The notes beneath the pieces are model-generated. The model did no database searches and was not told where the DNA came from. It saw only the letters and a program-made list of their open reading frames with translations. 24,454 nt of DNA, from IMG/VR virus record IMGVR_UViG_3300027760_000079, positions 1-24,454 of that record; one strand, written 5' to 3'. Of this stretch, positions 2,372 to 14,557 are shown in pieces. The translations under genes and the position numbers were made by a program. Source of the DNA: a virus. Each line of letters begins with the position of its first letter. Within the stretch, counting starts at the first letter, position 1.

Positions 2372-2698
2372 TTACTGCTCGGGCTTGTCGTCTTCGCCTG
2401 CCGTCGTCGCCTTGGCGCCGAACTGGTAGCCGAAGACCACGAGCACGATGGACTTAATCAAGTCGAACAGGCCGCGCCTGAGGTCGTCGCTCATCAGCTG
2501 CACGTCCCACGAGACCATGACGTCCGCGACGAACACGCCCAAGAAGACCGTAAGGACGAGCGCGACGAACCGCGTGAGCCACTCACGTTGACCCAGCGTC
2601 TGCGGGATGATGCTGTTCACGTACCAGACCAGAGCGCCGACGACCGCGACGCTTAGGACGACGCCCGCAATCATGACCCACGCGTCGCCGTGCAGCAT
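2372..2698 (-). CDS. Holin-like membrane protein, three segments, 108 aa
   Basis: The ATG at 2698 overlaps the hub stop (TGATG). Three hydrophobic segments are clear: about 8-27 (VMIAGVVLSVAVVGALVWYV), 44-63 (FVALVLTVFLGVFVADVMVS) and 78-94 (LFDLIKSIVLVVFGYQFG). The C-terminus is short and charged (AGEDDKPEQ). Length and three-helix topology match class I holins such as lambda S (about 107 residues), which form lethal holes for endolysin release. No endolysin gene lies next to it in this window, so the lysis role is probable rather than certain. It is the last gene of the structural operon. Confidence 0.6.
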   Translation of the reverse strand: MLHGDAWVMIAGVVLSVAVVGALVWYVNSIIPQTLGQREWLTRFVALVLTVFLGVFVADVMVSWDVQLMSDDLRRGLFDLIKSIVLVVFGYQFGAKATTAGEDDKPEQ

Positions 2699-5600
2699 CA
2701 GCCGATGCTCTTGGCCGGGTCGGTCCCGCCGATGGTCCCGTCAGGTCGAGCGAGGTACGCGTACCGTCGCACCTGGTCGGTGACGAGCGACCACCCTGCG
2801 TGCTCGATGTCGTCGCCGATGGCGAGGCCGTGCGCGCCGTCGAGCGTGACGGTGACGCCCACGATGCTGACGATGGTGCGGGTTGTGGAGCTCGACCACG
2901 CGCCCGCAGGCACGCATAGGACGACGTCCTGCGAGGCGAAGTACTGCACCGCGCTCGTGCCGAGGTCGGTCTGCGCCTCGCCGGTGCGAGGGTCCGTCGT
3001 GCCGGTGTACTGGTTGACCTCGACCGTGACCGTGACGGGGTCGACAACGGACGCCACGCGCAGGCTCGGCACGTAGCCCGAGGGGCGCCCGCCTGTGCAG
3101 CTCAGCGTCAGGTTGAGCCTGTTCTTGAGCCAGTCGCGTTCGTAGCCCATGACGCGGCATGGCTGCGAGGTGACGCCAATGGTGCCGTCGATGGCGATGG
3201 CAGCGGCCGCCGTGAGGACGACGCAGTCGCCGAGCGCGACCTCATGCGCCCCGGCAAGGTCGAGGCTCACCGCGAGCTGGTAGCGCACGCGAGGCACGCC
3301 CACGCGCTTGCGTAGGTGCTGCACGTAAGGGAGCAGGTTGACGGCCGCGTCTGCCGCGCCACCCTCGAGGACGATGCCGCGCAGGTCAATGTCGAGCTGG
3401 GCGCCAGCGTCGCCACCGGCCGCAGAGATGGCGTCACTGTCGACGTAGGTGATGACGCGCTGCGCCTCGCCCGCGTCGTTGTAGTCGCTCGATAGCTTGT
3501 AGGCGCGGACCACCTTGCCATCGACGGCCGACGTGACCTGCCCATCGACGAGCAGCTCGGCGTCCGTGATGGTCAGCACGGCCTCGCGCTCGTCGGCCGA
3601 GGTGATGGGGGCAAGGGCTACGTACTGCCGCCCGAGGGCGTAGCGCTGCACGACCGACGCGCCGAGCAGGGTCAGGATGTCCCTGATGTTGTCCTCGACC
3701 GTCTCGTTGGGGTCGATGGGGGCGTTGTAGTCACGCAGCACCTCGGGAACAGGGAAGCTCTCGAAACTGCTGGGCAGCACGTCCGTCGCCGCCAAGCCCG
3801 CGCCTACCGGCAGGTAGTCGAGCACGGTCTCAGTCTGGGCGCCCACGGCCGAGACGAGCAGCACAACGGCCGCCCTGCTCGGGGTCTCCTGCCAGAAGCG
3901 CGCAACCGGGGTGACCTGCACCGGGGTCCCTCGGTCGACAATGAACGTGTCGCGCTCGGGTGACCACTGGTCGACCGTCAGCGAATAGCCAACCTGAGCG
4001 CCGGTATCCGGGTCGAGCGCAGGAGTCGAGGCAGAGACGAGGGCGTAGATGACGGACTGTGTGCCGTAGTCGTCGCCGCCCTCAAGTCGCACCCACTGAG
4101 GCGCACCGCCCGCGAAGACGTCGTCAGTCACGAGGAGGTACGTGTCGCCGACCTGCGCCCACGCGAGAGCAGGGCCGCGCACGTCGTAGGCGTCGGTGTC
4201 GTTGTTTCGGTCGAGCGCGCTCGTGTCGACCCGGCGCAGCTTGTTGCTCGGCCACGCGCCAGCATCGAGCGCGCGCCAATCCCAGCCGAGGCATAGGCTG
4301 TTCTCGTTGCCACGGTCTCGGCCGAACCGGACTTGCAGCGCGCCGCCCTGCCCCTGCTCCTGCAGTGCGAGGTGCACCTGATGTGACCCATCACCCGAGG
4401 ACCAGAGGCGCACGTTCGCCCAGCGTCCCTCGACGCCCTGCGTGGTGACAGGTGACCACGTCTCGCACTGCCAGCGGGCCAAGTTCCACGCGCGTTGCGT
4501 GAGGTCTGCGCCCGAGACGACGGAGAGCAGGCGGTCAGGCCAGCGGACAATCTCCCCCGCTCCAGTTGGGTCGACCAGCGAGAGCGTCGAATACTCGGAG
4601 GTGGAGACGTTGCCAGCGTCGCCGACGTTAGTGCCGACCAGCGGGACGGCATTTGGGCTGACGTCGAAGCGAGACTTGCCGCCGCCGGTCAGGCTGCGCG
4701 CCGTGACCTCGTGGACAGTCGACGCGCCCACGCCGTTCTCAAGCTGCAGCCGCCCCTGCCGTGGGTGACCATCGGGCAGCGTGATGTCGAACAGGTTGCT
4801 GTGGGCCGTGTATGCGTTGCCGTCCGTCTCGATGGTGTTGGCGTCGTGCAGGAAGTACGGAGTGCGAACTGCCGCGCCGGTGTCCCACTGCTGCTCGTGG
4901 GAGACCTGGCACCCATCGGCGCCATCTGCCCGAGGCTTGAAGTGATGCCAGCCGCGCACGAGCTGCGCAGATGTCGCGCCGCCCGAGAGCTTCTGGCGCA
5001 TGGCCGCCGTCATGCTCGCGATGCGGAGCGTGAGCGACAGGCCATCGGGCGCCAGCTCGGCCTCTCGGTCGAGGACGCCGCGCCAGATTTCACGGTAGGA
5101 GCCGACACGCTGCCCACCGACGACAGGCGCCGCTTGGACGATGGCCACGCGCCCGCGCCAGAAGATGGGCGCCTCGGTGACGTAGGGCTGCCAGCCGCGT
5201 ATCGCGTCGTAGGTGTGCCGATAGCGCCGGGTCTGGCCGATGATGCGGAGGCAGTTCTGCAACGTGTTGCCCGAGACGCTACCGACCTGCAGCGCCTCAA
5301 GGCCCACGTGGATGATGTCGCCCGCGACGATGCCCGACGAGTCGACCACGTCGACATCCGTGGGGCCGAGCTCGTGAGGGATGGTCGCCGCGATGCGCGT
5401 CTTGGAGGCAGCGCCAGCGGGACCGATGCGCCGGAAGGTCGAGACAGGGTGAACCGTCCACGCCGAGCCCGTCACCGTGGCAGGCGAGACGCGCGCGCCT
5501 TGGGCAAGCAGCTTGACCGTGACGGCTTGCTGCTCGCTCATGCCGGTGACGTCGTCGATGCTGCCACCCTCGGGGCCAAGGTCGAGCACCGCCTCGATGT

Positions 5601-5745
5601 CGCGATAGTCGCGTGGGTAGAGCCCCGCCAGCGTGCCCTCGATGGTCTGCGTATCAGGCGCGGGGCCGGAGTAGTAGCGGTCGGTGACGCCCGCCACGGT
5701 CACGAGGATGGCGAGTTGTCGCCCGCGCAGGTCGTCGAGGCTCAC
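2698..5745 (-). CDS. Tail hub / central tip protein, 1015 aa
   Basis: The largest gene here. The GTG at 5745 makes GTGA with the previous stop and follows GGGGGGAT, so it is preferred over the upstream ATG at 5793. The N-terminal half has hub-like beta segments (DVVDSSGIVAGDIIHVGLEALQ is split by a Gly turn). Near residues 700-800 comes NETVEDNIRDILTLLGASVV followed by YVALAPITSADEREAVL. Around 850-910 VALGDCVVLTAAAAIAIDG and CRVMGYERDWLKNRLNLTL match the end of tail-hub domains, where a D-rich turn precedes the last strands. It would close the tail tip and contact the host. No enzyme motif was recognised. Confidence 0.7.
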   Translation of the reverse strand: MSLDDLRGRQLAILVTVAGVTDRYYSGPAPDTQTIEGTLAGLYPRDYRDIEAVLDLGPEGGSIDDVTGMSEQQAVTVKLLAQGARVSPATVTGSAWTVHPVSTFRRIGPAGAASKTRIAATIPHELGPTDVDVVDSSGIVAGDIIHVGLEALQVGSVSGNTLQNCLRIIGQTRRYRHTYDAIRGWQPYVTEAPIFWRGRVAIVQAAPVVGGQRVGSYREIWRGVLDREAELAPDGLSLTLRIASMTAAMRQKLSGGATSAQLVRGWHHFKPRADGADGCQVSHEQQWDTGAAVRTPYFLHDANTIETDGNAYTAHSNLFDITLPDGHPRQGRLQLENGVGASTVHEVTARSLTGGGKSRFDVSPNAVPLVGTNVGDAGNVSTSEYSTLSLVDPTGAGEIVRWPDRLLSVVSGADLTQRAWNLARWQCETWSPVTTQGVEGRWANVRLWSSGDGSHQVHLALQEQGQGGALQVRFGRDRGNENSLCLGWDWRALDAGAWPSNKLRRVDTSALDRNNDTDAYDVRGPALAWAQVGDTYLLVTDDVFAGGAPQWVRLEGGDDYGTQSVIYALVSASTPALDPDTGAQVGYSLTVDQWSPERDTFIVDRGTPVQVTPVARFWQETPSRAAVVLLVSAVGAQTETVLDYLPVGAGLAATDVLPSSFESFPVPEVLRDYNAPIDPNETVEDNIRDILTLLGASVVQRYALGRQYVALAPITSADEREAVLTITDAELLVDGQVTSAVDGKVVRAYKLSSDYNDAGEAQRVITYVDSDAISAAGGDAGAQLDIDLRGIVLEGGAADAAVNLLPYVQHLRKRVGVPRVRYQLAVSLDLAGAHEVALGDCVVLTAAAAIAIDGTIGVTSQPCRVMGYERDWLKNRLNLTLSCTGGRPSGYVPSLRVASVVDPVTVTVEVNQYTGTTDPRTGEAQTDLGTSAVQYFASQDVVLCVPAGAWSSSTTRTIVSIVGVTVTLDGAHGLAIGDDIEHAGWSLVTDQVRRYAYLARPDGTIGGTDPAKSIG

Positions 5746-6380
5746 AGCGTATCCCCCCAGACAGGACACCACGCGACCGCATGGATGCGGCACGAGGTCG
5801 TGTCGATGCGTAGCAGCGCCCGCGTACCGCGCGCCGTGCCGCCCGTCGTGTCAGTCTCCAGCGCTCGGGGCTGCGTCTTGACCAGACCCGTTGCGAGTCC
5901 AGGGCGCCGCGTCGTCCCACTCCTCGACCACGTGGGCATGATGCGGTAACGGTTCGCCGCGTAGCCGCGCACGTCTGCGACCAGCGAGTTGTCCGCGCGC
6001 GTGAAGATGATGCCGCGGTCGACGGTCGCGCCCGACAGGGTCTGCAGCGTGACGTCAACAGTTGGCGTGATGGAGTAGTCAGCCTGCAGCGAGGACGTCA
6101 GCAGCGCGAGCTCGATGGCGTAGTCGAGTTGCCCGAGCGAGAGCAGCACGTAGGCCGTCTGGTTGATGCCCTCGGTGTTCGATACGTAGCCCTGCTGCTC
6201 GGCCACGACCGTGTCGGCAAACTGCGTCACGTGCGCCGTGTGCCAATGGCGAGACCTGACGCCCGCGAGATGGTTGAGCGCGTTCGCGTGACCCGCGAGC
6301 GTGGGACCGACCACCGGCCGAGCGCTGAACGCCTCGGCCTGCGATGGCTGCGAGAAGATGCCGCGATAAGGGACGCTCAC
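5742..6380 (-). CDS. Tail tip protein 3, 212 aa
   Basis: The start taken is the GTG at 6380, which forms GTGA with the previous stop and has a G-rich ribosome site just upstream; an upstream in-frame GTG at 6392 would add four residues. The product begins MSVPYRGIFSQPSQAEAF, has a His-rich part (NALNHLAGVRSRHWHTAH), a helical middle (AYVLLSLGQLDYAIELALL) and an Arg/Thr-rich C-terminal half. No family is recognised. It probably joins the tail tip because of its place before the hub gene. Confidence 0.6.
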   Translation of the reverse strand: MSVPYRGIFSQPSQAEAFSARPVVGPTLAGHANALNHLAGVRSRHWHTAHVTQFADTVVAEQQGYVSNTEGINQTAYVLLSLGQLDYAIELALLTSSLQADYSITPTVDVTLQTLSGATVDRGIIFTRADNSLVADVRGYAANRYRIMPTWSRSGTTRRPGLATGLVKTQPRALETDTTGGTARGTRALLRIDTTSCRIHAVAWCPVWGDTL

Positions 6381-7453
6381 TGCCACCCCCACACAAGGAC
6401 GCCGTGAATGTCACACGCCGAGGTACCCACAGGCACGTCCCACGTTGCGGAGTCTGGCTGTGGCCAGAGGCTCAGGCCGTGCCACAGCATGCCGACCTGC
6501 TGCGCCGTGATGCTCGGCACGTCGAGCTGCGTTACGGGGTCGAGGGTCTCGGTGTCTCGGACCTTGCCCCCCGCCAGCTGCACTGCGACTTGCCCACCCT
6601 CGCCGCTCAGGTCGGCCGTGCCAGCGTAGCCGAAGCGCAGGACGCCCGCGCCGAGGGGCGTGGAGATGGTCACGCGCACCGAGAGTGTGCGGTCCTGCGA
6701 CTCGGTGTCCGGCATGCGGACGCAGGCCCATCGGTGCTGGTAGGGCTGCAGCTTGTCCTGCCCCGCCACGTTGACGTTCTGCAGGTCGCTGACGTTGACC
6801 GCGACGTGGGGCCGCGCGTTGTAGGCCGTCTCGTTGTCGTGCAGGGCCTGCATCGTGCGAGCGCTGAGCGGGTTGTCCTGGCTGACCTCGCCATCGAACG
6901 CCATGCGTCCGTCTGCCTGTCGACCCGCTGGCAGAGACGTAGGCTGCGCATGCGTGACAAGGATGCTCCACACCTCAAGCGACGACACGCTGTCAGCGCG
7001 CAGGCGCAGGTTGATGCGCTCGTACCCGCCGACCCACGCCACGTTTACCGTGCCGCTGAAAAACTTCACCGTGGCGTTGAGCCCGCTACCGCCTGTCACC
7101 GAGAAGGAGCCACCACCGTTGACGCTCGTGACCTGCAGCAGATGGTTGCTGCCGACAGGGCCGGGTCGCACCTTGCACGCCACGACGACGAACACCTGAG
7201 TGACGCCCGACAACTCGGGGATCTGCCACGTTGCAACGGTGGCCGATGTGTTGGCGATGCGCGCGCAGGGCGTCGTGCCCGTCGAGGCGTTGTAGACGAA
7301 GCTCTGCGAGATGCAGTCGGTGCGCCCTGAGTGCGCGTCGAGCCAGTTGGACGCCGCAGAGAGAGGCGCCACCGAGTCGGCTAGAAGCTTCTCGCCGGTC
7401 AACAACTCCTGCGGGTCGATGGGCGTGTAGCTTGCGGGGATTGGGCGAGGCAT
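6377..7453 (-). CDS. Tail tip protein 2, 358 aa
   Basis: The ATG at 7453 overlaps the previous stop (TGATG). The product begins MPRPIPASYTPIDPQELL, and is dominated by beta-type alternation: TQVFVVVACKVRPGPVG, GSFSVTGGSGLNATVKFF, ERINLRLRADSVSSLEVW. Such Ser/Thr/Gly-rich beta proteins with jelly-roll-like strands are common in tail tips and may bind carbohydrate, but no motif proves this. It is part of a four-gene tail-tip group between tape measure and holin-like gene. No family is recognised. Confidence 0.6.
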   Translation of the reverse strand: MPRPIPASYTPIDPQELLTGEKLLADSVAPLSAASNWLDAHSGRTDCISQSFVYNASTGTTPCARIANTSATVATWQIPELSGVTQVFVVVACKVRPGPVGSNHLLQVTSVNGGGSFSVTGGSGLNATVKFFSGTVNVAWVGGYERINLRLRADSVSSLEVWSILVTHAQPTSLPAGRQADGRMAFDGEVSQDNPLSARTMQALHDNETAYNARPHVAVNVSDLQNVNVAGQDKLQPYQHRWACVRMPDTESQDRTLSVRVTISTPLGAGVLRFGYAGTADLSGEGGQVAVQLAGGKVRDTETLDPVTQLDVPSITAQQVGMLWHGLSLWPQPDSATWDVPVGTSACDIHGVLVWGWQ

Positions 7454-8730
7454 CAGGGCTCCTCGACCAGCGTCATGGCGATGGGCTCAGACCGCACGCG
7501 AGCGCCCGAGAGTCTGACGGGGTAGTCGCTGGCCGAGCTCGCCGCGACCCTTGCCACCACGCGCCCCGCGAGAGGCTCCGTGGTGTACGCGTCGCTGAAC
7601 GCCGGCACGTCCGTCCCATCGAGCAGCGTCTCAAGGAGCCTCGCCCGCCGCGAGTCGCCCCACGTGAAGTCGAGCGTGCAGGGCTGTCCGCGCGTGACGT
7701 AAGGCGCCCAGGCTGCGATGACCTGGCCCTCGTCGTTCTCTGCCGCCGACTGCCCGCGCACGGTGAACTCCAACTCATGCGTGATGGAGTGCCCGACGTG
7801 GCGACCTCGCGCTCGACCGTCCTGCAGCTCGACCACGCCGTCGATGCTGCGGAGCACGCGGCTGTGTCGAGTCAGCCCGCGCTCGAGGACGAGGACGAGG
7901 GGCGTGCGGTAGGTCGCCGTCAACAGGTAGCGTGACGAGACGAGCGCCGGGACCTCTGCGCCTGTAAAGCCGAGCATGCGCCGGAACCGCTTGGAGATGG
8001 CCGTCGCAGGCCAGCCGACGCCCGAGATGCCCACCGGGTAGGACGTCCACACGCGCCCCGTCGTGTCGATGCCCCATCGGATGCGCCGGAACACGTTGTC
8101 GTTGGCGTCGTTGTCGACCTGCTCGAGCGAGTCGGTGGGGAACACGCCGTCAGCCTCGGCGTCATAGGCGCGCAGGGCCACAGGCAACGAATGAACGGTG
8201 ACGTCTTCGTTGTACAAGCCCCCAAAGGTGAGCCCGTCGTTGACGCTGAACGTCTGGCCCACGTTCCAGAGGTCGAGGTTGCCACGCTCCCACGCATCGG
8301 GCGCCGTGACGATCTGGTACGAGCCGACCGTGGTGGACGAGGTCGCACCAGGAGCGAAGCCCCACGGGTTGCCCGTCGCCGACTGCACCGCGAAGGAGGC
8401 GATCTCCGAAGTGAGCACGCGCACGAAGATGCGGTCGGTCTCGTCGATGCCGACCTCCCACGTGGCAGGCACGCCGCCGCCCGCAGTCCAATCAGCGTTG
8501 AGCGCCTCGCTCATCGACTGCCCCAGCTGCGAGCCGTAGCCATTGAGGAAGCTCAGCAGGTCGGGGTATCGCCCGCCGTCGTAGAGCGTGGTCGTGGCAG
8601 GAATGGTGACGTTGCCAGCGCCGCGCGTGAACACGGTCGAGCCCGCGAACTCGTAGACGTCGCATCGAGCAAGCAGCGCAGGGATGGAGCGCGCCGAGGT
8701 AGCCGAGCCGGGAAGGACGATGACAGGCAT
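7453..8730 (-). CDS. Tail tip protein 1, 425 aa (possible distal tail protein)
   Basis: The chosen start is the ATG at 8730 in a TGATG overlap with the tape measure stop; the GTG three bases earlier is an equally close alternative. The protein is rich in beta patterns and aromatic residues (TWEVGIDETDRIFVRVLT, GLTFGGLYNEDVTVHSLP, HELEFTVRGQSAAENDEG). No membrane segment is seen. As the first gene after the tape measure it occupies the place of the distal tail protein or lambda gpM in other long-tailed phages. The role rests on order only; the protein is longer than most distal tail proteins. Confidence 0.6.
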   Translation of the reverse strand: MPVIVLPGSATSARSIPALLARCDVYEFAGSTVFTRGAGNVTIPATTTLYDGGRYPDLLSFLNGYGSQLGQSMSEALNADWTAGGGVPATWEVGIDETDRIFVRVLTSEIASFAVQSATGNPWGFAPGATSSTTVGSYQIVTAPDAWERGNLDLWNVGQTFSVNDGLTFGGLYNEDVTVHSLPVALRAYDAEADGVFPTDSLEQVDNDANDNVFRRIRWGIDTTGRVWTSYPVGISGVGWPATAISKRFRRMLGFTGAEVPALVSSRYLLTATYRTPLVLVLERGLTRHSRVLRSIDGVVELQDGRARGRHVGHSITHELEFTVRGQSAAENDEGQVIAAWAPYVTRGQPCTLDFTWGDSRRARLLETLLDGTDVPAFSDAYTTEPLAGRVVARVAASSASDYPVRLSGARVRSEPIAMTLVEEP

Positions 8731-10388
8731 CACACCACCGCCAATCGTGACGAGGAGAGACTACCAGCGCGGGACTCGCGCTGCGACTGCCGGACGAGCA
8801 CGTTGCTGACCTCGTCTACGCCGAGGACGACCGTGACGTTGACCGGGGCTGCACCGCCGCCGCCCGCGCTGAACGACGACACGCGGTCCTGAGCTCCACC
8901 ACCCGACGCGCCCGAACTGGCCGCGCTCGAGGAGCCGCCGACCGTCGAAGCGCCGAGCGCCCGAGCAGTGCCCGCGAGCAGCAGGCCGGTACCAGCCATG
9001 ACGGCCGAAGCCTGAAAGAGTCCAGGCGCCGTGTATCCAAGCACCGGGCCGGTGAGGGCTGCAGCCACGCCGAGCGCGCCAAGGAATACAGCGTAGCCGA
9101 ACGCCTGCGCGCTCAGACCGGCTGCCACCTGCCCCGCGAGCTTGCCGAAGCTGACGCCCGCCTTGTCGCCGTCGATGACCAGCGTGGCGAGGGCTTGCCC
9201 CGCCGCTTGGCTGAACGACTGCAGCGCGCCCACGCCCATCGACTCAAGGTCCATCGCCGACTCGGTCAAACCGCGCAGGCTCGACTCGGCCGCCGTGACC
9301 TGCTCAGGCGCTACTGCATCAGGGGCGATGAGGTCGCCGAGGGCCTGCTGCAGACTCTGCGTCGGAGGTGGCAGCGACTCGATGAACTGCAGAGGGCTCA
9401 GCGCATCGTATGCCGCGCGCGCCTCGGCTGCTGCCTGCGCTTCCTTCTCGGCCTCGACGATGATGCTGATTTCGCGCGCGTAGGCGTCGGTCGCCTCTTT
9501 GACCGCAGCGGTCCGCGCCTTGGTCGAAGCGGTCGCGCGCTCGTTTGCCTTGGTGGCCTGCTCGACGACCACGGCTTGCTTCTGCTCTGCCTCGCTAACC
9601 ACGCCGAGCGTGGTCTTGAGGTTCTTGATGATGTCGTCCCGCTTGCGCGTGTTGAGCTGCAGGTTGAAGTCAGCAGTTGCGCGCCGGTCCTCGAACTCAA
9701 GCGCCTGCTCGTCTACCCGCTGCGCGAGTAGCGCTAGCTCGAGCACGCTGGCCTCAAGCTGTGCGCCGCGCAGAGTGTCAGCCACTGCGAGTCGTCGCGC
9801 ATCGTCGCGCAGGCTCTCTGCCTTCTGCCGCGCCGCCTCAGCTGACGCTGCATACTCTCGTGCCTGAGCGTCGAACGCTGCGATGTCAGACTCCAGAGGG
9901 GCTGTCTGGACGCTCGCAGCCCGAGCAATCGACAACTGCTCAAAGGTCAGCTTCGCCACGCCAACCGAGGCGATGAGTGCATCGACGTCCGTCTTGGTCG
10001 ACGCCGCCGCCCTGCCTGCCGCCTCAAAGCCTGACCGCAGCTTGTCGACCGCTGGCACGAATAGCTCAGACTCTGCGATGGCCTTGGCGACGCCCTGCGC
10101 CAGTTCGCCGAACTGGCCGATGACCTGCCCGAGCGGACCAGCCAACCCAACGCCGAGGGCGAGAGATGCGATGTCGAGCGCGCCGCTGAACGTGCGCATG
10201 GGCTTCTCGACCGAGTCGACGGCATCGTCCAACCGCTTGACCTGACGCTCAAAGCCAGCGAACAGGCCGCCCGCCTTGTCGGCCTTCTTGCCGGTCGCCT
10301 CGGCAGCGTCCTCGACCTTCTTGAGCTTGGCCGCTGCGTCGTCTGCGCCTTGGATTTTGACGTCGATGGCTAGGCTTGTGACGCTCAC
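8730..10388 (-). CDS. Tail tape measure protein
   Basis: The start is the GTG at 10388, seven bases after AGGAGG and one base after the chaperone stop; the in-frame TTG at 10415 lacks these features. The 552-residue product begins MSVTSLAIDVKIQGADDA, has long coiled-coil helices (residues about 170-340, many Ala, Glu, Lys, Arg), a hydrophobic stretch near 70-95 and another near 430-490 (GYAVFLGALGVAAALTG), then a Gly/Ser-rich tail. This is the classic tape measure pattern; it sets tail length and may form a pore at DNA entry. With the usual rule of roughly 0.15 nm per residue the tail would be about 80 nm, rather short. Confidence 0.88.
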   Translation of the reverse strand: MSVTSLAIDVKIQGADDAAAKLKKVEDAAEATGKKADKAGGLFAGFERQVKRLDDAVDSVEKPMRTFSGALDIASLALGVGLAGPLGQVIGQFGELAQGVAKAIAESELFVPAVDKLRSGFEAAGRAAASTKTDVDALIASVGVAKLTFEQLSIARAASVQTAPLESDIAAFDAQAREYAASAEAARQKAESLRDDARRLAVADTLRGAQLEASVLELALLAQRVDEQALEFEDRRATADFNLQLNTRKRDDIIKNLKTTLGVVSEAEQKQAVVVEQATKANERATASTKARTAAVKEATDAYAREISIIVEAEKEAQAAAEARAAYDALSPLQFIESLPPPTQSLQQALGDLIAPDAVAPEQVTAAESSLRGLTESAMDLESMGVGALQSFSQAAGQALATLVIDGDKAGVSFGKLAGQVAAGLSAQAFGYAVFLGALGVAAALTGPVLGYTAPGLFQASAVMAGTGLLLAGTARALGASTVGGSSSAASSGASGGGAQDRVSSFSAGGGGAAPVNVTVVLGVDEVSNVLVRQSQRESRAGSLSSSRLAVV

Positions 10389-10389
10389 T

Positions 10390-11210
10390 TCACTTCCTCC
10401 TGCGGGCCACCTCAAGTTCGGCGTTCTCGGCCTCCCTCAACGCCCGCGTCAGATGCAACACACCCTCGACCACTGCCGCCGATGCGTCAGGCAGGACGAC
10501 CTCCAGCGGGATACCTGCGCGCCCAGCCTCTAGCCCGTCGATGACGCAGTGCACCCACAGCTGCCGTGACTCGTGCTCGGGGCACGTGACGCTCCATCGC
10601 TCGCGGTCGTACATGTCGACCGCCAGCCACGTCACACCGTCCCGCTGCTCTCGGGCTGCCCACTCGTCGCCGACGCCCCCGCAGTCACCGTCAGCGCAGG
10701 CGCCGCACTCGTAGCGTCGGGCGTTGAGCCGATTGCAGGCACCGGCCCACGCGAGCCAGTCGAGGACGGCGCGTGCGCTTTTCCCAAGGTCGACACAGCC
10801 TCGATGTGCGACGCGATGCCCACGATGACCGACTCGGCGTCGGGCAGTAGCTCCCACAGTCGCTCGACCGGATAGCCCGAGGCATCCCGCTTGAGTTGCG
10901 GCAGGTCACTGAGGCTCACGCAGCACGCCCGCACGATAGCCTCGTGACGACGCAGCACACGCTCAGCAGACACGAACGCCGCCGCGCCCTTGGTGATGTG
11001 GGCCTGCGCCTCAGCAACGCAGACCGCGCGCCGGTCGAGGGGCAGCGCCTCGACCCACGTCGAATCGTCTGGAATGACCAAGCACGCCGGGTCGCGCGTC
11101 TCGATGTACCGTCGCAACGCCTCGACCTCGTTGGCCTGCTGCACCGATGGGTCGCAGATGAGGACGAACCGCGCCGCAACCGCCGTGTTGGTGAGGACAA
11201 CGAGGCCCAT
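10390..11210 (-). CDS. Tail assembly chaperone, frameshifted fusion (GT-type), 273 aa
   Basis: A ribosome that slips back one base on G GGA AAA (10785-10779) leaves the G frame after residue 144 (TLGK) and continues as SARAVLDWLAWAGACNRLN for 129 more residues to TGA at 10390-10392. The T domain carries a Cys cluster (ECGACADGDC, later TCPEH) and helical ends (VVEGVLHLTRALREAENAEL). The reading-frame geometry was checked: codon first bases are 2 mod 3 in G and 0 mod 3 in T on this strand, which is a -1 shift. This matches lambda G/GT logic, where the rare long form links tape measure and tube subunits. Confidence 0.8.
10632..11210 (-). CDS. Tail assembly chaperone, upstream frame (G-type)
   Basis: The ATG at 11210 overlaps the tail tube stop (TAATG). 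Normal translation gives 192 residues. Residues 1 to about 144 are helical and charged, with EALRRYIETRDPACLVIP and VSAERVLRRHEAIVRACC; the last 48 are a low-complexity Ala/Ser/Pro/Gly tail. The switch to low complexity happens exactly at a slippery site, and a second ORF overlaps in the -1 frame. Chaperones of this type bind the tape measure and recruit tail tube subunits; they are not part of the virion. Sequence alone is weakly conserved; the arrangement carries the call. Confidence 0.8.
   Translation of the reverse strand: MGLVVLTNTAVAARFVLICDPSVQQANEVEALRRYIETRDPACLVIPDDSTWVEALPLDRRAVCVAEAQAHITKGAAAFVSAERVLRRHEAIVRACCVSLSDLPQLKRDASGYPVERLWELLPDAESVIVGIASHIEAVSTLGKAHAPSSTGSRGPVPAIGSTPDATSAAPALTVTAGASATSGQPESSGTV
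10779..10785 (-). other. Programmed -1 ribosomal frameshift site, GGGAAAA
   Basis: On the minus strand this reads TTG GGA AAA GCG in the upstream frame, so both tRNAs can re-pair after a one-base slip (GGA to GGG, AAA to AAA). It fits the X XXY YYZ rule and is close to lambda's GGGAAAG. Three bases downstream, CACGCG (10775-10770) can pair with CGCGTG (10753-10748) across a 16-base loop, a possible stimulatory stem, although the spacer is shorter than usual. Confidence 0.85.
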
Positions 11211-12502
11211 TAGGAGCAGAACGCGAGCAGGAAGTAGCCGCCATTCGCGGCCGTTGGCGTACCACTCGTGCCGGTGTAGGGGCTCGACGCCGCCGCGATG
11301 GTGCAGGTGCTGAAGGAGCGCTCGTCCTCGATGGTGTCGCCGGGCAGCTCCTGGACGAACCCGGCCGGGATGATGAGCGCAGCGCCTGCGAGCTCGCCGC
11401 CCTCGATGGGGAACACCCACGTGTTGGTTTCGCCGAGGCGAATCATGTCCCGCAGCGTCGCGCGCACGAAGTCTGAGAAGGTCAACGAAACCGTGACTTG
11501 CGCGCTGGTCACCTCGGCATCAGCCGCGCCCACGATGCTCGTGGTAGCCGAGCCGACAGGGTCGAGCCCGATGGTGATAGTGGCCGTCATGTCGCGCAGC
11601 GTCGCCACGGTCCGCGCGCCGGTGTTGCTCGGGGCGTAGATGGCCTGACCCCAGCGCTTGAGCGCCACGCCGTTCGCCAAGTTCGCCGGACCCGCCAGCG
11701 CAGCCCCGTAGGCCGTGACGGACTTGAACGCGGGCGAGAGCGTGAACGTCATCTCCAGCGTGCGCTTGTCGTCGCCGCTGAACGCGAGGCCGATGTTGTT
11801 CGCGCGGCAGCCGGTGCTCATCACCTCGCGAGCGCGGTCACGGTAGCGCACCGCCAGCGACGTTGCGCCGAGCGCGCCAATCTTCGGGTAGGCCACGGAG
11901 CAGAGCTTGACGCTGTCGCCCGTCTGCGGGTTCGCCGAGAAGGCAGGCCGCACGGTCACCACGTTGGTGCCGCCATTGACGGCCGTGACGATGGCGTACT
12001 CGGTGAGCCGCGCCGCCGACACCCACGCGACCACGTCGCCGGGGTTCACGAGCGCGAGGTCACCCGCGGACACCTCGAACTCAACGTCGCTGACGTCGTT
12101 CGTCACGGTCACAGCAGAGCCGCCCGTCTTGGCCACGACGCCGAGTGACGAGCCGAGCAGCTCCGCGAGACGCGTCGAGGCGAAGTTCGTCCCTTGGGCG
12201 CTCTCACCCTTGAACACGAGGTCGAAGTCACCGAGCTCACGAATGGCAGGCTCGCCGCTCGACAGGTAGGGCGCCTCGGGCTCGGGCACCTGACCCGCGC
12301 CGCTCGTCGAGACGGCCGGCTCAGAGTAGAGCGGGATGGTCGCCGTGGTGGCCTCGTTGCTCGAGGACGCCCGCGTGGGCTTCACGGCGTTGAAGGTCAG
12401 CGCCGACGTGTCGACCAGCGCGTGGTCCGCTGCGTCGGGGCTGCCATAGGTGGACTCAACCGCGATTGCGACCGACTGGCCGCCGAGACGTCCTGCGCTC
12501 AT
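11210..12502 (-). CDS. Major tail tube protein
   Basis: The 430-residue product starts at ATG 12502 (ATGA overlap) and opens MSAGRLGGQSVAIAVESTYG, the common start of long-tail tube proteins, followed by SPDAADHALVDTSALTF. The rest is beta-rich with patterns typical of tube subunits: ATSLAVRYRDRAREVM, DDKRTLEMTFTLS and QVTVSLTFSDFVRATL. It should polymerise around the tape measure to form the tail shaft. It is about twice as long as classical tube proteins such as lambda gpV, so an extra domain is likely. Location just before the chaperone genes and tape measure is canonical. Confidence 0.82.
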   Translation of the reverse strand: MSAGRLGGQSVAIAVESTYGSPDAADHALVDTSALTFNAVKPTRASSSNEATTATIPLYSEPAVSTSGAGQVPEPEAPYLSSGEPAIRELGDFDLVFKGESAQGTNFASTRLAELLGSSLGVVAKTGGSAVTVTNDVSDVEFEVSAGDLALVNPGDVVAWVSAARLTEYAIVTAVNGGTNVVTVRPAFSANPQTGDSVKLCSVAYPKIGALGATSLAVRYRDRAREVMSTGCRANNIGLAFSGDDKRTLEMTFTLSPAFKSVTAYGAALAGPANLANGVALKRWGQAIYAPSNTGARTVATLRDMTATITIGLDPVGSATTSIVGAADAEVTSAQVTVSLTFSDFVRATLRDMIRLGETNTWVFPIEGGELAGAALIIPAGFVQELPGDTIEDERSFSTCTIAAASSPYTGTSGTPTAANGGYFLLAFCS

Positions 12503-12951
12503 ACGCTCACCCTCACTGTGGCTCGGACGCGCAGCACGCGCCCCGTGACTCTGTCCGTGTCGCCGATATCCTCAACCTGAGTGTCGGGGAATACTGCGAC
12601 GTCATTGGCTTGGGATGCCCATACCGACTGCGGCCGGATGGTGCTGATGATGTTGACGGCGTCCTCGACCGCTGCCCGGTATGCCGAGCCCGCGAAGTCG
12701 GCTTCACGGTAGAGCACCGTGATGAGCACCGAGTAAGACGCCTCGTCGATGGGGTCACCGCTCACGAGGCCGGTGTCGATGGGCGCGCCCTCTTGGATGT
12801 AGAGCGCGCGGCTCGGAACTCGGTCGGACTCCTGCAGCAGTTCACCCTCGCTGGCGAAGTCGACCAGCGAGAACGCGAGCCCAGGCGCAGTCGTGGGCAC
12901 GATGCCGAGGATGGCGCCGTTGAGCGCGTCGAGTAGTCCGTAGAGGCTCAC
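12499..12951 (-). CDS. Tail terminator-like protein, 150 aa
   Basis: Start ATG 12951 and stop both lie in ATGA overlaps. At 150 residues, with an N-terminal helix (YGLLDALNGAILGIV) and later strands and a helix (ASYSVLITVLYREADF, AYRAAVEDAVNIISTI), it has the size and alpha/beta order of tail terminators such as lambda gpU, which cap the tail tube and meet the head. Its position immediately before the tail tube gene is the main support. No catalytic motif is expected or seen. Confidence 0.6.
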   Translation of the reverse strand: MSLYGLLDALNGAILGIVPTTAPGLAFSLVDFASEGELLQESDRVPSRALYIQEGAPIDTGLVSGDPIDEASYSVLITVLYREADFAGSAYRAAVEDAVNIISTIRPQSVWASQANDVAVFPDTQVEDIGDTDRVTGRVLRVRATVRVSV

Positions 12952-13520
12952 TGCTTACCTGCCACTGCGCGATTGATGCAGGCGCTGATAATCTCGGGCA
13001 GCGCTGCGACGAGGTCCGCATTGTTGCGAGGGCTGATGCCCCACCAGTTGCGCTTGAGATGCGTCGCGCCAGCGTAGGCCACGGCCGCGCCTCGAGGTGT
13101 GATGGTCACGCCCGTCTTGCTGATGGCCTGCACGCCGATGCTGCGCGAGAGTTGCCCCGAGAGGATGAGGTCGACCTCGACGCTGCGGTCGTTCAGCCCC
13201 TTGCGGCTCTCGGCCTTGTACTGCTTGTAACCGTCCTCATAGAAGCGGCCCACGACGCGCCCCTTGTTCGGGCCTCGCTTGCCCTTCCAAGGCGTGCCGC
13301 CCTTGGGCTTCAAGCGCCGCGCAGTCTCGCTGTTGCGATAGATGACGATCGGCTTGGTGCTGTACGCCTTCATGCCGTTGTCATCGACGTTGAGCCCCTC
13401 GAAGAACGTGCGCTGCACGAGCGACGTGCGCAGAACCTCGGCCACGTCACGCATGGCCTTGAGGTCCCACACGAATGAGGGCCACGTCGCGCCGAAGTCG
13501 TGGGTGGCCTCAATGCTCAT
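12948..13520 (-). CDS. Tail completion protein, HK97 gp10 / Mu gpG-like
   Basis: The ATG at 13520 is in an ATGA overlap with the connector gene. The 190-residue product is basic, with a Lys/Arg/Gly-rich centre (KPKGGTPWKGKRGPNKGR) and a C-terminal part that includes VDLILSGQLSRSIGVQ and later a Gly-rich AVAYAGATHLKRNWWG. A D-L-x-L-S-G-x-L-x-x-S-I pattern and position between adaptor and tail terminator match head-tail joining or tail-completion proteins. The family assignment is moderate; sequence similarity in this group is usually low. Confidence 0.6.
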   Translation of the reverse strand: MSIEATHDFGATWPSFVWDLKAMRDVAEVLRTSLVQRTFFEGLNVDDNGMKAYSTKPIVIYRNSETARRLKPKGGTPWKGKRGPNKGRVVGRFYEDGYKQYKAESRKGLNDRSVEVDLILSGQLSRSIGVQAISKTGVTITPRGAAVAYAGATHLKRNWWGISPRNNADLVAALPEIISACINRAVAGKQ

Positions 13521-14557
13521 CGCTGGTCCGTCACCCGCGCCAGCTCGATGGTCGCCGGGGGCTCTGGGTCCGTGGGGAAACCGATGATGGCCGTGTTGGT
13601 CAACGTCGAGCCGACCTGCCGCGCCAACTGCTGCGACGACGCCGCGTCGATCTCCTCGGGCTCGACCTCGCCGTTGAGGTTGAGGTCCTGCCAGTCGATG
13701 AGGCTGAGCACGTTGTCGAGCTCGGCCGCAGCGCGCTCGCGGTAGTACGTGGCAAGCGCCGTGCGGTCTTGGCCGCCCATGCTCGTGCCATCGAGAATGA
13801 CCGCCGCCGCGAGGTAGGCATGCGCCCGCGCGAACTGCCTACCGGGTAGCACGTCCTCGTGGCGAGGCGAGATGCGCCGCTTGATGTGGCCGATGAGTTC
13901 GTCGAGCGCCGCGTCGCGCTGGAGCTTCCAGCTACCTTGACCAGCGGGCCGCGCTCGCAGGTCAGGCACGTAGCCGAGCAGCTCCGCGTCAGACAGCCGC
14001 GTGGCGAACTCCATCGCTACGACGTGCAGGACGTCCCTGTCTCTATCGTAGGCCAACGGTTCAGCGTTGAACGCGTCGACTGTCTCGTAATCGATGGTCC
14101 ATCGGATGTTGCGCACAGGCGTGGCGCCGATGTGCGCGCTCGGGATGCCCGCCTGACGCTGCAGCCAGTGCAGATTCGCCGGGTTGACCGAGAACGCGAC
14201 CGGATGCGGCACCGGCTCGGCAAGCTCAAGCGTGCCCTCGATGCCATCGTCCGTGACCACGCGCACGACGCGCAGCGAGGCACCGACGAGGCCGATGGAC
14301 TGCAGCACGACGGCAGCGGGTTGGTCGCCGCTGATGGCCGTGGTGGGCGAGCCCGACAGACCCCACGTCACGGTCAGCGTGCGGCGGTCCGTGCTGATGG
14401 CTGTGACCTGGTCGACCTGCCGCGACTGCAACAATGAGTAGGTCTGCACACCCGCTGGCCAATCGATGGTCAGCGTGGGGTTAGCGACGAGCACGCCGTC
14501 TGGATTAGTCCAGCGCCACACATGGTCGAGGCCGGTCAAGAGCTTGCGTGCGGTCAT
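13517..14557 (-). CDS. Putative head-tail connector with N-terminal beta domain, 346 aa
   Basis: The ATG at 14557 follows a 32-nt gap (14558-14589) that holds only the leader. Residues 1 to about 160 look beta-rich with alternating hydrophobics (LTIDWPAGVQTYSLLQ, TLTVTWGLSG). From about 175 the protein becomes helical: VLHVVAMEFATRLSDAELL, KLQRDAALDELIGHIKRR and YYRERAAAELDNVLSLIDW. The helical part resembles small head-tail adaptors of the Mu gp36/HK97 gp6 type, and the location fits. A fusion of a beta domain to an adaptor is longer than usual. The product name is inference from context; a plain virion protein is the alternative. Confidence 0.55.
   Translation of the reverse strand: MTARKLLTGLDHVWRWTNPDGVLVANPTLTIDWPAGVQTYSLLQSRQVDQVTAISTDRRTLTVTWGLSGSPTTAISGDQPAAVVLQSIGLVGASLRVVRVVTDDGIEGTLELAEPVPHPVAFSVNPANLHWLQRQAGIPSAHIGATPVRNIRWTIDYETVDAFNAEPLAYDRDRDVLHVVAMEFATRLSDAELLGYVPDLRARPAGQGSWKLQRDAALDELIGHIKRRISPRHEDVLPGRQFARAHAYLAAAVILDGTSMGGQDRTALATYYRERAAAELDNVLSLIDWQDLNLNGEVEPEEIDAASSQQLARQVGSTLTNTAIIGFPTDPEPPATIELARVTDQR

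Follow-up and report, generated by a model that had tools for sequence, protein, structure and literature searches.

An uncultured tailed phage with a putative programmed -1 frameshift in its G/GT-like tail assembly chaperone gene

In an uncultured tailed phage, two open reading frames overlap just ahead of the likely tape measure gene, and the second (T) has the appearance of an ORF without a proper start. T could be a gene in its own right or a continuation of the first frame (G); we examined the locus and its relatives. The DNA analysed, called the window in what follows, is a stretch of 24,454 bases from a virus record, with a GC content of 68%. The results point to a G/GT tail assembly chaperone gene with a programmed -1 frameshift, a reading to which we give a probability of about 95% on the basis of sequence comparison.

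The window contains a minus-strand run of genes that proceeds from head to tail. On the head side, PHROGs recognised the terminase small subunit, the terminase large subunit, the portal, the head maturation protease, a head scaffold/decoration protein and the major head protein; the portal is of the Mu type according to Pfam. When the tail-side proteins were scanned with PHROGs and Pfam (2698-14557, minus strand), the genes after the head block gave no convincing family match, and G, T, the tape measure and the tail tube candidate were not recognised by any profile of the two collections. The gene order, head then tail, fits the slot occupied by G/GT between a major tail protein and a tape measure gene, and neither neighbour matches a profile. 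The likely names of these neighbours (Table 1) were taken from their position. Because no profile matched it, the tape measure gene was named from its position and from the AGGAGG ahead of its start; for the major tail protein, which has no profile match and for which structure prediction was poor (pLDDT 43), position served as the basis. A tblastn search with the tail tube protein gave no match among 50,697 phage records, and the protein encoded at 13517-14557 found none in known phages. A scan of genomes with the tail tube alignment returned nothing, and the G and tail tube profiles matched no solved chain by sequence.

Table 1. Features of the putative frameshift locus and of its two neighbours, in window coordinates.
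Feature	Coordinates	Strand	Remarks
Likely major tail protein (tail tube candidate)	11210..12502	-	Adjoins G upstream; conserved in 26 contigs; no profile match, poor model
Zero-frame, G-like ORF of 192 aa (tail assembly chaperone G)	10632..11210	-	ATG at 11210, stop at 10632; dN/dS 0.19; fold nearest 2ob9
Slippery heptamer G GGA AAA	10779..10785	-	In phase for a -1 shift; zero-frame codons TTG GGA AAA
T-like frame entered by the shift (GKSARAVL...), 131 codons and stop	10390..10785	-	dN/dS 0.12; often no start codon
Predicted GT fusion, 273 aa (142 + 131)	10390..11210	-	Read from the sequence
Low-complexity zero-frame tail of unshifted G (50 codons)	10632..10784	-	No sign of amino-acid constraint
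AGGAGG, likely ribosome binding site for the next gene	10396..10401	-	Read from the sequence
Likely tape measure protein	8730..10388	-	Named from position; probable start GTG 10388-10386, AGGAGG 7 nt ahead; no profile match

The ATG of G overlaps the stop codon of the upstream gene (TAATG), and the open stretch of the T ORF begins 120 nt before the heptamer and ends at 10390. The coordinates of the two ORFs confirm that they overlap and that T is in the -1 frame relative to G, as the preliminary description had stated. The perfect X XXY YYZ heptamer that it had reported is indeed found in phase on the minus strand, and the length foreseen for the fusion, 273 residues, was recovered from the number of codons on either side of the shift. 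When G is read to its own stop, the zero-frame tail comprises 7 codons in the lineage of L014 and 44 or 50 codons elsewhere. As an observation on its composition, the C-terminus of unshifted G is an Ala/Ser/Thr/Pro-rich tail of 44-50 residues in three lineages, and a tail of 7 residues in the L014 lineage.

Relatives were obtained from IMG/VR, where a scan that took the likely tail tube protein as its query gave 26 contigs at 45-100% identity. The heptamer site is covered by 22 of them; L011, L025 and L029 end before the site, and L034, whose contig ends within the tail tube gene, was left out of the site check. L009 is the same as the window over the site, L014 is identical to L017, and L027, L028 and L030 are identical to one another, so that 19 distinct sequences, including the window, were available. 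These fall in four lineages and were used for folding, for the tree, for RNAalifold and for the dN/dS calculations. Their identity to the window is 41-90% for G and 32-97% for T. The relatives all come from one small group of contigs. Profile scans with the G, T and tail tube alignments led to the same contigs and to no further relatives.

The layout of two overlapping ORFs with the second in the -1 frame is common to the window and to all 22 covering contigs. Furthermore, an in-phase X XXY YYZ heptamer is present at the same place in 22 of 22, which is what the conservation of the heptamer in relatives, proposed earlier as a check, had been meant to reveal; among these contigs we found none in which the heptamer was destroyed and both ORFs were kept. 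The background frequency of such sites was evaluated on the phage's other genes. In draws of 90 codons, any in-phase XXXYYYZ appeared in 3.9% of the draws, and an in-phase GGGAAAN or CCCAAAN site in 1.2%. The other minus-strand genes contain one single other in-phase X XXY YYZ in 6194 codons, and the AAA codon is very rare in them (3 AAA against 111 AAG). A second GGGAAAA was noticed just after the T stop in L014, L015, L016, L017, L022 and L032, 823 or 825 nt into the compared stretch; being out of phase with the next gene, it was dropped as a chance occurrence.

Two forms of the heptamer were observed among the 22 contigs, GGGAAAA in 13 and CCCAAAA in nine, and CCC occupies the X triplet in 7 of the 19 distinct rows. 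L021 carries CCC despite a G that is 85% identical to that of the window. On a tree of G and T from which the site residues had been removed, the X triplet changed between GGG and CCC at least two times, and the grouping of the CCC rows as one clade was rejected (log-likelihood 37 lower, p-AU 1e-5). The exchange swaps the zero-frame glycine for proline and the preceding codon CTG/TTG for CTC, and the slippery pattern is never broken. In addition, the third bases of both zero-frame slippery codons (GGA/CCA and AAA) are A in 19 of 19 rows, unlike the third positions at offsets -3, -6 and -9, which are variable. Invariant A third bases, together with the exchange of a whole triplet in which the pattern is kept, are what selection on tandem tRNA slippage would predict. 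The residues directly before the heptamer (V-S-[TS]-L, encoded at 10786-10797 on the minus strand of the window, and in the relatives) are conserved; the serine is strongly held through multi-base codon changes, since both classes of serine codons, TCN and AGC, are used, even within one lineage.

The same exchange bears on a transcriptional origin of the shift, in which the RNA polymerase would slip on the A run and add or drop a base. The invariant part shared by the two forms of the heptamer is AAAA, as this explanation would have it. However, four A are fewer than the runs named for such slippage in passages of PMC3711429 (A n>7), and the block change between GGG and CCC fits tandem tRNA re-pairing and is irrelevant to a polymerase slipping on A4. 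We regard a transcriptional shift as extremely unlikely, and return to the ribosomal -1 frameshift.

The frame under selection was followed by dN/dS on the 19 sequences in four lineages, using within-group pairs only. With pairs that are not independent of one another, the values upstream of the heptamer were 0.19 for the G frame against 2.99 and 2.03 for the other two frames, and those downstream were 0.12 for the T frame against 2.20 and 3.37. Within the G/T overlap, the T frame gave 0.10 and the G frame 2.05; the residues of the zero-frame tail therefore show no constraint. The direction of constraint between the G and T frames was the same in each of the four lineages, and, in bins of 15 nt, the phase of the commonest changes moved at the heptamer from the third positions of G to the third positions of T. 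Purifying selection jumps frame at the heptamer. This result also concerns another explanation of the layout, namely that a sequencing or assembly error, or the decay of the gene, split one ORF in two. No observation in its favour was found. Both parts are under purifying selection, each in its own frame, and the same two-frame arrangement recurs in the 22 contigs, which together with the window make 19 distinct sequences, so that we give to an error or a decayed gene a practically negligible probability.

A further alternative treats T as a gene of its own that starts within G, and the heptamer as a coincidence. The window offers a sole candidate for such a start in the T frame, a GTG located 72 nt upstream of the heptamer, which L012, L013 and L021 share; the lineage of L023 has further GTGs in this frame. 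However, no Shine-Dalgarno-like sequence was found ahead of the window's GTG, whereas the next gene has its AGGAGG, and over the last 72 nt before the site the T frame shows no constraint (dN/dS 4.2). Moreover, the T frame of 10 of the 23 sequences (9 of the 19 distinct ones) is free of ATG, GTG and TTG between its opening and a point 60 nt past the site, and a heptamer kept in every covering contig is hardly coincidental. Because of these missing start codons and of the GTG devoid of a Shine-Dalgarno-like sequence, a separate T gene is very unlikely. An independent strong start for T was looked for in the 23 sequences and was not found, and the earlier remark that the second ORF lacks a proper start was borne out. 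As judged from these features, the T frame is very probably translated as an extension of G and not from a start of its own. Together, the heptamer kept in 22 of 22 contigs, the constrained frame that switches at it and the lack of a T start among the sequences searched support the programmed -1 frameshift put forward initially.

One element of the preliminary description was not supported, a possible stem 3 bases downstream of the heptamer. All 19 distinct sequences were folded and compared with dinucleotide shuffles, RNAalifold was applied, and base pairs were counted for two candidate stems. In the window, the downstream fold was no better than the shuffles (z -0.33 over 45 nt, 0.58 to 0.60 over 70 nt), RNAalifold found no consensus structure in the 19 sequences, and covariation was absent in both of the stems tested, that of L019 and that of the window. 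There appears to be no downstream structure conserved across the whole family. Only for L018, L019 and L020 did the 45-nt fold clearly beat the shuffles (z -3.0, -4.0 and -3.6); this lineage has a strong GC stem that the window does not share. Over 70 nt, two folds in the L014 lineage gave z -2.0 to -2.4 and one in L033 z -2.2. As L018, L019 and L020 carry a strong local stem, a lineage-specific stimulatory structure is possible. A candidate Shine-Dalgarno-like stimulator was seen by eye in 15 of the 19 rows, as a GAGG tetramer 11-13 nt upstream of the heptamer; it is missing in L018, L019, L020 and L021.

Tentatively, and with somewhat more doubt than belief, we propose that in this group of phages the slippery site would do without any RNA structure downstream of it, and would work about equally well with the glycine (GGA) or the proline (CCA) tRNA before AAA. 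The passage between GGGAAAA and CCCAAAA would then take place by three base changes, and selection would act on the slippery pattern and not on the residues. If this is true, the family would provide a natural paired test of the tRNA features that set G:GT ratios in high-GC hosts.

The proteins were examined as well. An AlphaFold2 model of the G core was computed from the 19 rows (pLDDT 79, pTM 0.73, the other four models being at 47-60). By Foldseek, the HK97 tail assembly chaperone 2ob9 ranked first of 350,542 PDB chains for this model, with a weak E of 2.3. VIA-align 2 gave a Z of 6.3 with 2ob9 (100 residues aligned to the 107-residue chain, rmsd 4.6), a middling Z of a kind that is common, and its second-best chain was 3fgx (Z 5.8). 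In BFVD, the best hits had no functional name (E 8e-4 and 1.4e-3), and several entries named tail assembly chaperone came lower down, at E 0.1 and above. With an identity of 10-12% and this Foldseek E value, the model suggests, and does not demonstrate, that the fold of G resembles that of the HK97 tail assembly chaperone. These weak fold matches agree with the position of the gene and with the anatomy of the frameshift. The T domain (10393-10785, minus strand), for its part, has a C-x2-C pair in each of the four lineages and, about 30 residues further on, a second cysteine pair, C-P-x-[CH]. None of the 19 rows departs from C35, C68 and P69, numbered as in the T of the window. The pairs are like those of a zinc ribbon and may bind a metal; a literature search gave nothing obvious on metal binding by a T domain.

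From these data, we infer that slippage occurs at a low rate and supplies two products with distinct roles. Most ribosomes would stay in the G frame up to its stop and release free G, the main product. On G GGA AAA, the tRNAs placed on GGA and AAA (CCA and AAA in some relatives) would, in a minority of ribosomes, slip back by one base and re-pair with GGG AAA, and translation would continue in the T frame to yield the GT fusion. The analogy with lambda suggests that the G part would have the tape measure protein as its partner, and the T part the tail tube protein.

A conserved recoding event would in this way be extended to a group of phages for whose tail proteins the PHROGs and Pfam families tried gave no match. 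Gene callers would report two unrelated ORFs at this locus; recognition of the frameshift allows genes left without a name to be called tail chaperone, tail tube and tape measure. As an evolutionary argument for a slippery site, obtained without experiment, the double exchange between GGG and CCC is a clean one. A literature search, with most subscription journals outside its scope, returned no paper pairing CCCAAAA with a tail assembly chaperone gene, and we make no claim that the pairing is unreported. The standard survey is that of Xu, Hendrix and Duda (2004).

In lambda, the heptamer is GGGAAAG. The Z base is A in this phage and G in lambda, and, among the relatives, the X triplet is exchanged between GGG and CCC. 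Passages of PMC5009743 describe G/GT frameshifting and the shift-prone sites G_GGA_AAG and C_CCA_AAG, which fit the mutual replacement of the GGG and CCC triplets, the last base being always A here. The 50-codon zero-frame tail of the window lineage also differs from lambda. In the window, 150 nt separate the site from the zero-frame stop; PMC10885494 reports averages of 26 and 36 nt for known sets, and the difference speaks against the frameshift. The long tail is likewise far from the average of the training set of one published predictor described there. Unlike lambda, G and T of this phage have no detectable sequence similarity to any PHROGs or Pfam family, and its T carries the conserved C-x2-C / C-P-x-[CH] pair of motifs. 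The haloarchaeal tailed viruses HCTV-1, HCTV-2 and HCTV-5, compared by description only, differ in the last heptamer base and in virus group, and HK97 provides the top-ranked solved structure for the G model. As reported in passages of PMC5009743, the binding partner of lambda G is the tape measure protein, that of T is the tail tube subunit, and the G:GT ratio is about 30:1. Shared with lambda, which has counterparts in other long-tailed dsDNA phages, are two overlapping ORFs just before the (here likely) tape measure gene and a T frame without its own start; -1 slippage at X XXY YYZ and a G made alone and as GT are predicted for this phage, the lambda features being drawn from the same passages of PMC5009743. 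The predicted frameshift adds a new and highly diverged case to the lambda G/GT kind, in a phage group that has drifted beyond the reach of profile searches, and its mechanism is not new.
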